Shown here piece after piece: positions 23,724 through 35,341 of a DNA stretch of 35,341 nucleotides. Each line of letters opens with the position of its first letter. Within the stretch, counting starts at the first letter, position 1. A program made the position numbers and the translations under genes. The notes under the pieces are model-generated. The model was not told the DNA's origin. It saw only the letters and a list, made by a program, of their open reading frames with translations, and ran no database searches. The stretch is from Coriobacteriales bacterium (lineage in GTDB: Bacteria; Actinomycetota; Coriobacteriia; Coriobacteriales; Atopobiaceae), in contig JAUMWL010000003.1 in the NCBI GenBank assembly GCA_030529665.1, forward strand, positions 16,104-51,444. Reading direction: 5' to 3'.

Positions 23724-24833
23724 CTACATTCTTGTGCCTATGCGTGGAATCCTTGTGGTTCCATCGGGTGAGGCACCCTCGCCCAGATCGATTGCGGGCA
23801 CCTTGCTATCCAGACCGTTATGACGCTCCGGCAACGACTTTGGGGCGGGAAGCTGCTGTGACTCCTGAGGTGCCGCAAAACCCTGCTCTTCCTCGGGTTC
23901 GGCCACCTCCTCGGACTCGGGCATTGCCTCGGGCTCGGGCGACTCCGCAGACGCCTGAGCATCATCCACGCCAAGGTCCTGGCCCAAGAGGTACGGCTCA
24001 ACGTCCCAAGCATCCGGCGCGTTTCCCCAACTTGACGGTTCTTTTACAGGCACGATGCCCTGGCTCTCGCTTGCGCCGAGGGGTTGCGACGGAGAGTTGA
24101 AGTCCACCATGTCCACAGGACCCTCTCCATCCCCCGACGAGCTTCTGCGCTGCTCCTCGCGATAGTAGTAGTAATCGTAGTAGTATTCGCTGGACTGGCT
24201 CTGGCAGAAGTTCATTACGATGCCCGAGAGCGGAGCGTTGGCAGTCCTCAGCTGATCGGCCGCGCGAACAATGGCGTCCTTGCGCGTGTACTGCTCACGC
24301 ACGACCAAAAACACCGCGTCTACCTTTGACCCAAGCACCGCCGCGTCAACAAAGGTGCCCACGGGCGGCGTGTCAAACACCACGTAGCCATACTCCTGCT
24401 TTACCGCATTGAGGAGCTCCAGGAACCTGCGAGAGTTCAAAAGGTCAGAGGGATTGGGTATATGGGGCTCGGCATCAAGAAAGTGCAGCTGCGGGGTATC
24501 GGTCGGCACAATGGCCTCTTTGAGCGAGATCTCGCCCGAAAGGACCGCATACATGCCCCGCTGCGCATGGATCCCCAGCGACCTTGCAACGGACCTTCTC
24601 CGCATGTCGCAGTCCACCAGCAGCGTTGGAACACCAGACGTGGCCATTGCGCGAGCAAGGTTGATGGAGATGAACGTCTTTCCCTCGTTTGGAACGGCAC
24701 TCGTTATGACCACCGTCTTTACGGGGTCATCCACCCGCATAAAGCGAATGTTTGCCAACAATGTCTTTGCGGAGTTGTCCACGCTTCGGGTAGATCCAGG
24801 ATACTTTTTTGAATCCTTCTTTCTTCTAGCCAT
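23724..24833 (-). CDS. cytoplasmic BY-type tyrosine kinase with long acidic C-terminal tail
   Basis: 369 residues. Residues 20-215 are the P-loop kinase domain of CpsD/YwqD type: Walker A SAVPNEGKTF (45-54), Walker A' LLVDCDMRRR (71-80) and Walker B YVVFDTPPVG (150-159). The autophosphorylated tyrosine cluster EYYYDYYYY (216-224) has seven Tyr. In most homologues the cluster ends the protein; here about 140 residues rich in Glu, Pro, Ser and Ala follow, probably disordered. No CpsC/YwqC membrane adaptor is nearby. ATG 24833 follows GGGAGG, and a perfect TATAAT lies upstream (24882-24887). It opens a kinase-phosphatase-EAL run. Confidence 0.92.
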   Translation of the reverse strand: MARRKKDSKKYPGSTRSVDNSAKTLLANIRFMRVDDPVKTVVITSAVPNEGKTFISINLARAMATSGVPTLLVDCDMRRRSVARSLGIHAQRGMYAVLSGEISLKEAIVPTDTPQLHFLDAEPHIPNPSDLLNSRRFLELLNAVKQEYGYVVFDTPPVGTFVDAAVLGSKVDAVFLVVREQYTRKDAIVRAADQLRTANAPLSGIVMNFCQSQSSEYYYDYYYYREEQRRSSSGDGEGPVDMVDFNSPSQPLGASESQGIVPVKEPSSWGNAPDAWDVEPYLLGQDLGVDDAQASAESPEPEAMPESEEVAEPEEEQGFAAPQESQQLPAPKSLPERHNGLDSKVPAIDLGEGASPDGTTRIPRIGTRM

Positions 24834-32675: not shown

Positions 32676-32716
32676 ACAAGAGGCGGCGCCGACGCACGGT
32701 TGGCGCCGCCTCTTGT
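32676..32716 (+). terminator. strong hairpin terminator
   Basis: ACAAGAGGCGGCGCC (32676-32690) pairs perfectly with 32702-32716 over an 11-base loop, 24 bases after the stop of the FN3 protein gene. GCTTCCC rather than a T-run follows. Confidence 0.75.
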
Positions 32717-32741
32717 GCTTCCCATACCTTTTGCGGTTATT

Positions 32742-32747
32742 TATAAT
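32742..32747 (+). promoter_or_regulatory. -10 element of the luxR-type gene
   Basis: A perfect TATAAT in GGTTATTTATAATGAC. It overlaps the ATG at 32746, so that ATG cannot be the translation start if this promoter is used. Confidence 0.55.
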
Positions 32748-32778
32748 GACTGTTCTACGCGATGGGGAGGAGTACGGT

Positions 32779-34248
32779 TTGGAAGCCAATAATAACAAGC
32801 TGAGCATAGATAGCCGCCGTCTTGTTCCCGTCGTTCAGTTTGGCCTTTGGTTCTTTGCATTTATGCTGCTGGAGTCGTTTGTAAACAGTAGCGCCGCGAC
32901 GCTTCTTGGTGCCAGTGCAGTTAACGCAGCCTACTCATTGGGCATCTTTTGCACGGCAACCGGACTACTCGTATTTGGCCTTGCGCATGCACGAAGCGCG
33001 GATCTGTGCAAGAGGGCCTTTATCATTGTGGCAACGGCGTGCGCTGTGGCGACTCTGAGCATTCCATTTGCGCAGAACGCAGGCCTGCTCGCGTTCTTAT
33101 CCTGTGCGTCGCTGCTTTCGTGCGGCTTTGTTGGTGGCCGTGTGCACCTTGGGATGGCCCTTGAGTTTGGCGAGGGGCCTTGGTGCGGACGTGCAATAGG
33201 TGCAGCCACCGGCATTGTGGTCTGCGTTCAGTTTTTGGTTCAGAACCTAGCGCAAGGACCAGCGCTGGAGCTTGTGTGCATACCGGCCTCGCTCGTGGCC
33301 CTTGTCTTTTTTGACGTGCGTCATCAGGACCGTTGCATGGATGCGAACACAGGGGCCAGTGTGCGAACGTGGACACATGACCCCGCAGACAAGCAGCGCC
33401 ATGGCGCTTACCTTGTGATTGCCGCAGCCATTCTTACCGTGATATTCACCCTCAACGACAGCATTGTGGTGCCCTTGGACGCCTCGGGTACCGTGCAGCT
33501 CTTTAGCGGGGTCCGCCTCTTCTATGCGCTGGGACTCGTAGTATCTGGCCTTTTGTTCGACTTGGGTCCGCGATTCTGTTTTACCTTTACTACCGTGGCC
33601 GTACAGATAATGGCTGTGCTCGTGCCATACTTCTTGCGAACGCCAGAATGGTACAACCTCAACATGGCAATCTTTTATTTCTACGGCGGCTTTTACGTTA
33701 TGTTTGTCACCGCCGAGTTTGTGATCTTTAGTGCCCAGATGCACCATCGGGCGTTGTGGGCAGCCTTGGGCCGTACGACACGGAGCTACGTGGCAGCTCT
33801 GAGCGTTATTCCCGTTGCCTTGCTGTACGACGCCTTTGGTGTAATCTCGCTTGCCGCCATGGCAGCTGTCCTCAACATGGCACTGCTTGCGGTGTGCATG
33901 GCCGATGCCATGCTTTTGGCGCGATGCGACATGCCTGAGCGCCAAGGTTTAGAGCCCCCAGATGCCGCGCCTCAGTCGATAGAGGATGCGCAGGAACCCG
34001 CAGCGGATCCGGCCAAATTGAGTGAGAGGGACCTCGATCGCTATGCGCAGTCCATCGGCCTCACGGGTCGTGAGGCCCAGGTACTTGTTCTGTTGGTCGC
34101 CACCGAGGACAAGAACGACAAGATGGCAAATGACCTGGGCATCTCTAGGCGCACCTTACAGCGCCACATTGCCAACATCTACGACAAGGCGGGCGTGCAA
34201 TCACGCATTGGACTCTTCCAGGCAGTTGCGGCATACGTGGCGGGCTAA
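32779..34248 (+). CDS. membrane-anchored LuxR-family regulator
   Basis: 489 residues from a TTG start. Residues about 20-390 hold roughly ten to twelve membrane helices in MFS-like arrangement, a sensory half common in Coriobacteriia LuxR proteins. A Pro/Ala/Glu linker follows, and residues about 420-485 are the LuxR helix-turn-helix (IGLTGREAQVLVLLVATEDKNDKMANDLGISRRTLQRHIANIYDKAGVQSRIGLF). I choose TTG 32779 because GGGGAGG lies 8 bases upstream and because the -10 TATAAT overlaps the only plausible upstream ATG. It lies between two genes for secreted proteins, which are candidate targets (inference). The signal is unknown. Confidence 0.85.
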   Translation: MEANNNKLSIDSRRLVPVVQFGLWFFAFMLLESFVNSSAATLLGASAVNAAYSLGIFCTATGLLVFGLAHARSADLCKRAFIIVATACAVATLSIPFAQNAGLLAFLSCASLLSCGFVGGRVHLGMALEFGEGPWCGRAIGAATGIVVCVQFLVQNLAQGPALELVCIPASLVALVFFDVRHQDRCMDANTGASVRTWTHDPADKQRHGAYLVIAAAILTVIFTLNDSIVVPLDASGTVQLFSGVRLFYALGLVVSGLLFDLGPRFCFTFTTVAVQIMAVLVPYFLRTPEWYNLNMAIFYFYGGFYVMFVTAEFVIFSAQMHHRALWAALGRTTRSYVAALSVIPVALLYDAFGVISLAAMAAVLNMALLAVCMADAMLLARCDMPERQGLEPPDAAPQSIEDAQEPAADPAKLSERDLDRYAQSIGLTGREAQVLVLLVATEDKNDKMANDLGISRRTLQRHIANIYDKAGVQSRIGLFQAVAAYVAG

Positions 34249-34259
34249 GGGACAGGGTA

Positions 34260-34305
34260 AACGATCGGGGCCAGGTGAACACTTGCTCACCTGGCCCCGA
34301 TCGTT
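34260..34305. terminator. bidirectional terminator, 19-bp perfect stem
   Basis: AACGATCGGGGCCAGGTGA (34260-34278) pairs exactly with 34287-34305 over an 8-base loop. It lies between the convergent luxR-type and secreted-protein genes. Confidence 0.8.
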
Positions 34306-34332
34306 CGATTGCTCGCTTCCGCCTTGCTCGAC

Positions 34333-34986
34333 TTACTGGATGTTGACGTTCGCTATGGCTCCGGTCTTGGTATGCTTGAGAACGGCTATAACGCTCATGG
34401 CACTCTTGGGTACCGTGGCGCCATTCTTGATAGTCTTGTATCCCTTTTGGGTGGCAACTTCCAAGCGCACTACCTTATATCCACTCGCTGCGGTAACGCT
34501 CACCTTCTTACCCACAAAGGTACGCTTGTCGGTGCTGTACGTATAGGTCGCGGCCTTGTTGAATTTGGAAGTGACGTTGGTCTTTCCAATCGTGAACTTC
34601 TTTACTGGGTTCGTCCAGTTTCTAACGGTGTACGTCGTCGTATACTTCTTGCCATTGTAGGTAAAGCTCAGCTTGGTCGTCCCAGCTTTGTGAGGGACCA
34701 CGACCAAATACTTTACGCTTCCCCAGTCTTGCAGACCCATGCCAGCGACCTTGATGTTGCTTGACTTGGGGTTCTTTACACTCTTGTTGGTCATGTACCA
34801 GATTTCGTAAGGCTCCCCAGTTTTGTCCTTGGCTGCAGGCTTTACCAGCTGGATGCCCGTCTTGGCTTTTGTGAGGGACGCGACGTCTCTTTCGTTGGTT
34901 GCAAAAGCCGGCGTGGCAATTGCCAGCAAAGCCAAAATGGCAACTTGCAACACAACAAACGTTCGGACGATCTGTCTTTTTTGCAT
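34333..34986 (-). CDS. small secreted protein, unknown, Ig-like beta-rich
   Basis: 217 residues with a signal peptide (about 1-30, QKRQIVRTFVVLQVAILALLAIATPAFA). The mature part is rich in Lys, Thr and Val with beta-sandwich-like stretches (HKAGTTKLSFTYNGKKYTTTYTVRNW, KVSVTAASGYKVVRLEV) resembling bacterial Ig-like domains, but I cannot name a family. Predicted extracellular or wall-associated; no anchor motif. The start follows TTGGAGTAAGCC, and a promoter lies upstream. It converges on the LuxR regulator. Confidence 0.75.
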   Translation of the reverse strand: MQKRQIVRTFVVLQVAILALLAIATPAFATNERDVASLTKAKTGIQLVKPAAKDKTGEPYEIWYMTNKSVKNPKSSNIKVAGMGLQDWGSVKYLVVVPHKAGTTKLSFTYNGKKYTTTYTVRNWTNPVKKFTIGKTNVTSKFNKAATYTYSTDKRTFVGKKVSVTAASGYKVVRLEVATQKGYKTIKNGATVPKSAMSVIAVLKHTKTGAIANVNIQ

Positions 34987-35051: not shown

Positions 35052-35188
35052 TCGGAGTAACCGCAGGTAGATGCCCATGTCACACATGTGACGTTACCCC
35101 ATTGCATGCTTTTTTAGCATTGTTGGCCTGGATTCTTGCAGAGTCGCTGACGAATTACGGCAAGACGGTCCTCTCGTCAGCCACATGC
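35052..35188. other. non-coding stretch before the 41-base repeat array
   Basis: No reading frame with a ribosome site is seen on either strand. It contains GTCACA-CA-TGTGAC (35078-35091), a short dyad of CRP-site type, and the T-run CTTTTTTAG (35109-35117). Together with the array that follows it makes over 300 bases without a gene. Confidence 0.4.
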
Positions 35189-35341
35189 GTGCTGTCTTAG
35201 CGAGCTGTGTGAGACTTGTGCCTGGTGGTGTGCTGTGATCGCAAGCTGTGTGGGTCATGCCCGGGCGCGCGTGCTGTGATTGCGAGCTGTGTGGGTACCC
35301 GGACCGAAAGCGTGCTGAAATTGCGAGCTGTGTGGTTTGGT
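35189..35341. repeat. regularly interspaced repeat array, 41-base period, continues past the window
   Basis: Units begin at 35189, 35230, 35271 and 35312, exactly 41 bases apart. Each has GTGCTG, five less conserved bases, then GCGAGCTGTGTG (GCAAGCTGTGTG in unit 2), followed by about 18 bases that differ between units. Unit 1 is the most diverged, as at an array end; unit 4 is cut by the window edge. 41 is not a multiple of 3, and no frame runs through, so this is not a protein repeat. No cas, tas or transposase gene lies in this window. The 18-base variable parts are shorter than normal CRISPR spacers. Confidence 0.85.

Follow-up and report, generated by a model that had tools for sequence, protein, structure and literature searches.

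The question raised by this locus is whether a row of conserved blocks and variable segments at the edge of a contig is a guide array or a repeat of some other kind. The window, i.e. the whole stretch of 35,341 nucleotides that was analyzed (contig positions 16104-51444), ends on the right where the contig ends; the assembly therefore truncates the array, and its true end is not seen. The preliminary description had proposed extending the contig to the right, and a search for such a continuation found none. Tandem Repeats Finder reported a period of 41 and 3.7 copies at 35187-35335 of the window and, together with a consensus search and a core scorer, corroborated the earlier observation of four unit starts (35189, 35230, 35271, and 35312) exactly 41 bases apart. 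The units had been described as about 23 conserved bases with a five-base soft spot, followed by about 18 variable ones; the soft spot exists but spans columns 7-13, the core (GTGCTG...GTGTGG) has 24 bases, and the variable part of each unit amounts to about 16-17 bases. Allowing up to three mismatches, the consensus search finds three of the window cores, the expectation from 100 shuffles being 0.00; the core at 35189 was picked up by a looser pattern and the core scorer but not by this search. Of the three variable segments of the window, the first two lack a significant relative and the third has one, at a level of identity attained in <1% of column shuffles (Table 1). Elsewhere in the window, an 18-base unit is repeated 2.8 times in tandem at 23891-23940, and a long perfect hairpin at 34257-34308, lying between convergent reading frames (32713-34248 on the plus strand and 34333-34986 on the minus strand), is probably a bidirectional terminator; an RNA-family search with this hairpin returned sub-threshold miRNA-family matches only.

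Table 1. Parts of the array in the window, and positions of a second palindrome at other loci of the genome
Feature	Position	Strand	Remarks
Core, unit 1	35189..35212	+	GTGCTGTCTTAGCGAGCTGTGTGA; pattern match and core scorer
Variable segment 1	35213..35229	+	Without significant relative in other arrays
Core, unit 2	35230..35253	+	GTGCTGTGATCGCAAGCTGTGTGG; consensus search and core scorer
Variable segment 2	35254..35270	+	Without significant relative in other arrays
Core, unit 3	35271..35294	+	Same sequence as search consensus
Variable segment 3	35295..35311	+	14/17 bases shared with a segment in array L049
Core, unit 4	35312..35335	+	GTGCTGAAATTGCGAGCTGTGTGG; consensus search and core scorer
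Bases after core 4, to contig end	35336..35341	+	Start of another spacer or of the turn to the reverse arm
Second palindrome, GATGCGAAAAGCGACA...TGTCGCAAATC.CATC	L043 3102; L077 start offsets 786, 847; L084 3507, 3568	minus (L077)	

What the window shows is the forward arm of a single array that belongs to a family of converging arrays found between genes across the genome. The core pattern has 193 exact matches in the 3.18 Mb assembly, whereas a reversed control pattern has none. Core scoring covered the window and 60 fetched loci, the array analysis being confined to fetched arrays, and yielded 357 cores, for which the distance between same-strand neighbors (<60 bases) was 41 in 220 of 227 cases and the forward-to-reverse distance was 33 bases in all 55, with no case of the reverse-to-forward order and only five cores isolated from any neighbor within 90 bases. 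Forward units, a fixed turn, and reverse units make up at least 55 intergenic arrays of almost identical build, scattered over the genome of this gut bacterium. A complete array contains, in each orientation, one to five cores of 24 bases at 41-base spacing, with a 9-base center between the arms; the means for the 55 turn-containing arrays are 3.0 units in the forward and 2.6 in the reverse arm. Neither the reverse-strand units that normally come after the turn nor the dozens of sister arrays lay within view of the preliminary description. A second dispersed palindrome (Table 1) adjoins many arrays, about 36-37 bases past the last core, and also occurs alone or in tandem at 61-62 bases. As judged by our own simple gene model, 53 of the 55 turn-containing arrays are clear of predicted genes, the other two overlapping a gene at L031:12871-13923 and a weak gene call in L046. 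Of the 42 arrays with both neighboring genes known, 26 are flanked by genes on the same strand, 9 by divergent genes, and 7 by convergent genes; stop codons lie at a median distance of 86 bases and start codons at one of 236 bases, and array polarity follows gene direction in 13 cases and opposes it in 12. The neighbors scanned include ordinary genes (PNPase, HemW, ArgD, and DNase IV), and an all-against-all comparison of predicted proteins, addressing the earlier suggestion to look for conserved neighbors, found no family recurring beside the arrays.

Mean pairwise identity is 84% for the cores, a value that leans high because cores were selected by a score threshold, and 38.5% for the spacers, for which composition alone would give 27.5%; the core and the spacing therefore look maintained, and the almost constant length of such strongly diverged spacers points to a constraint on spacing. 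The variable segments are nevertheless not independent of each other, as 132 spacer pairs are identical at 12 or more of 15 positions, whereas column shuffles yield about 15 such pairs. Because these spacer families recur between arrays and in both arms, the variable parts have diverged by descent and are not captured sequences, and captured spacers were rejected on this ground. The preliminary description had itself named variable parts conserved by descent across strains as speaking against its interpretation, and they are found here as divergence by descent inside one genome. Adjacent forward-arm spacers agree at 6.37 of 15 bases (5.67 in shuffles), whereas the first mirror spacers agree at 4.4, below the 5.57 of shuffles, and cores in mirror positions match no better than chance; pairing between the arms thus does not look maintained and was dismissed as an explanation. 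The arm consensus also differs between the two arms when they are oriented by the turn-adjacent bases. No two analyzed arrays have near-identical spacer sets, and there is therefore no sign of recent copying.

The DNA itself shows the layout, the rigid spacing, the position between genes, and the common descent of the variable parts, and the combination of a rigid register, diverged filler, and arms that do not compensate for each other suggests that protein binds at distinct sites sharing one face of the helix. We therefore infer a binding role for the cores, and we give about an even chance to the arrays being a dispersed intergenic repeat family that acts as rows of helically phased putative protein-binding sites. 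Each core would be bound by a DNA-binding protein that recognizes its sequence; at nearly four helical turns, the 41-base period would set the sites on one DNA face, and the protein may assemble across the array in a manner that could serve chromosome organization or insulate neighboring genes. This reading is favored by the regularity of the same-strand step (220/227) and of the turn (55/55) in the absence of any reverse-to-forward order, and by the fact that some congeners have converging arrays of comparable layout built on a different core. On the other hand, part of the core identity could stem from copying instead of selection and, at 10.5 bases per turn, the 41-base period is 0.10 turn off a whole number of turns and a 33-base step used in a congener is 0.14 turn off, which counts against phased sites.

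The congener arrays, seen in the sampled parts of the genomes, carry the core GTGCGCAC. In G015 the turn is 21 and the steps are 33 and 31, and in G013 the turn is 21 and the steps are 32; the distances of 21, 31, and 32 are near whole helical turns. By a strict pattern, GTGCGCAC arrays occur in 3 of 140 genomes of the family, all of the same genus as the source. A genus-wide system, in which a nucleoprotein complex would recognize converging, helically phased site arrays and the core would be swapped from one sister species to another with the layout preserved, is a more tentative proposal that we regard as rather doubtful. The source core pattern itself has no match in 15 congeners, and the turn with both core ends is absent from the other 397 genomes of the class sample. 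Paired cores were not found in a genome contig database or in viral contigs, from which very near records may be excluded, and one whole array compared with plasmids and phages gave no match. An array lies downstream of the degV homologue in the source genome but of none of the homologues in five congeners, where the local gene order differs. The best named match of the PNPase is 93%, to an Atopobiaceae MAG from yak jejunum, from which the family name of the source genome is deduced. This repeat was not encountered in our literature searches. Other sampled congeners harbor, in the parts covered, different dispersed inverted repeats, for example hairpins in G004 (L112-L114) whose loop TCCGCGCTCGCTTCGCTCGCTCACTTCGTGAGTC is conserved and whose well-paired stems are specific to each locus, and another dispersed inverted repeat of the GTGGAACGGAGTTCCCGGGGAGTTTGTTCC type in G011 (L123-L124). 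The sampled DNA of G015 (L118-L119) has four copies of a dispersed inverted repeat in which TTTAGGGAAATAGA and its reverse complement are 103 bases apart. G015 also encodes, between two GTGCGCAC arrays, a 317-aa RAYT-like reading frame over a Y1_Tnp match (L228 5156-6109), the ends of which, judged by eye in translation, seem to carry a different repeat; the Y1_Tnp loci of the genus (L212-L222) contain no exact GTGCGCAC.

The main rival, which is compatible with a binding role, is that the arrays are selfish MITE- or REPIN-like miniature elements, moved in trans by a transposase without benefit to the cell, with the opposed arms forming a hairpin used in transposition. High copy number, intergenic location, confinement to this species, converging symmetry, and the strong hairpin potential would all fit, as would the second palindrome past the last core, as if composites had been copied. 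Yet no gene family recurs beside the arrays, the Y1_Tnp of the genome amounts to two degenerate fragments with no array at the one inspected, the flanks show no clear common element ends, and the spacer sets differ between all analyzed arrays. Mobilization by a RAYT was rejected, there being no linked gene, and a mobile origin is, on balance, possible but on the unlikely side. Less probable still, and in our judgment improbable, is a structured RNA, in which array transcripts would fold into a long hairpin serving as a bidirectional terminator or mRNA stabilizer. The array at L056, taken as a single strand, folds at -162 kcal/mol (z -13), so that a hairpin in RNA or single-stranded DNA is physically possible, and the arrays lie nearer to stop than to start codons; however, neither the mirror cores nor the mirror spacers, the latter less alike than chance, give any sign that the hairpin is maintained. 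Taken by itself, the core does not form a fold (z 0.16 to 0.74 for DNA), its variants doing no better than shuffles, and an Rfam search for a known family gave only tRNAs and sub-threshold miRNA matches. The arrays are also unlike terminators in that gene orientation around them is mixed and 9 of 42 sit between divergent genes. Finally, a guide or memory array (CRISPR, TIGR, or a novel RNA-guided type) with 17-base spacers, close to what the preliminary description had proposed as an interspersed spacer-carrying array, matches in having conserved and variable blocks whose length is constant. It is nevertheless very improbable given that the spacer families have a common descent, that the arms are opposed, that the dozens of loci have no neighbor gene in common, and that no match to the Nop domain (PF01798) was found in the genome, whose assembly is 88% complete and in which a remote Tas could escape.

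The usual explanations for dispersed repeats in bacteria are a transposase or hairpins. The putative protein-binding sites proposed here combine a fixed core and spacing with a diverging remainder, uncompensated arms, and a layout resembling that of arrays with another core in some sister species, which makes their role directly testable. The locus also warns that a repeat-and-spacer appearance at a contig edge need not denote a guide array. The preliminary description was right to set this array apart from a simple slipped minisatellite, as the core and the spacing stay constant and the intervening segments vary, so that the units are not alike throughout. In contrast to the diverse, unrelated spacers of CRISPR, the variable parts recur as families. 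TIGR arrays consist of two alternating 8-12-base repeats and 9-base spacers beside a Nop-domain gene (PMC12045711); the arrays share with them the regular succession of short conserved and variable blocks but have one 24-base core per 41-base unit and lack the Nop-domain match. STAR-like repeats, which occur without cas genes and are mistaken for CRISPR, resemble them in their repeat-and-spacer look and many copies per genome but differ in sequence, and opposed arms with a fixed turn are not among the features described in the part of that account considered here (PMC5294841). REP/BIME elements are likewise extragenic and of high copy number (here 193 pattern matches); however, the core is not an imperfect palindrome and folds no better than shuffles, the arms converge once without alternation, and no RAYT is linked (PMC2817692). 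REPINs, with two inverted conserved blocks around a variable stretch of fixed length, extragenic location, and compensatory changes (PMC3116915), share all but the last of these features with the arrays, which repeat the unit several times in each arm at a constant period and show no compensatory change between arms. The GTAG and CGTC palindromic repeats, reported from other phyla in a paper that does not mention Coriobacteriia, are dispersed, short, and often inverted dimers (PMC3733652); the unit described here is not a stem-loop as theirs is, but their partners are often unlike, and such heterodimers resemble the unlike arms of the present arrays.
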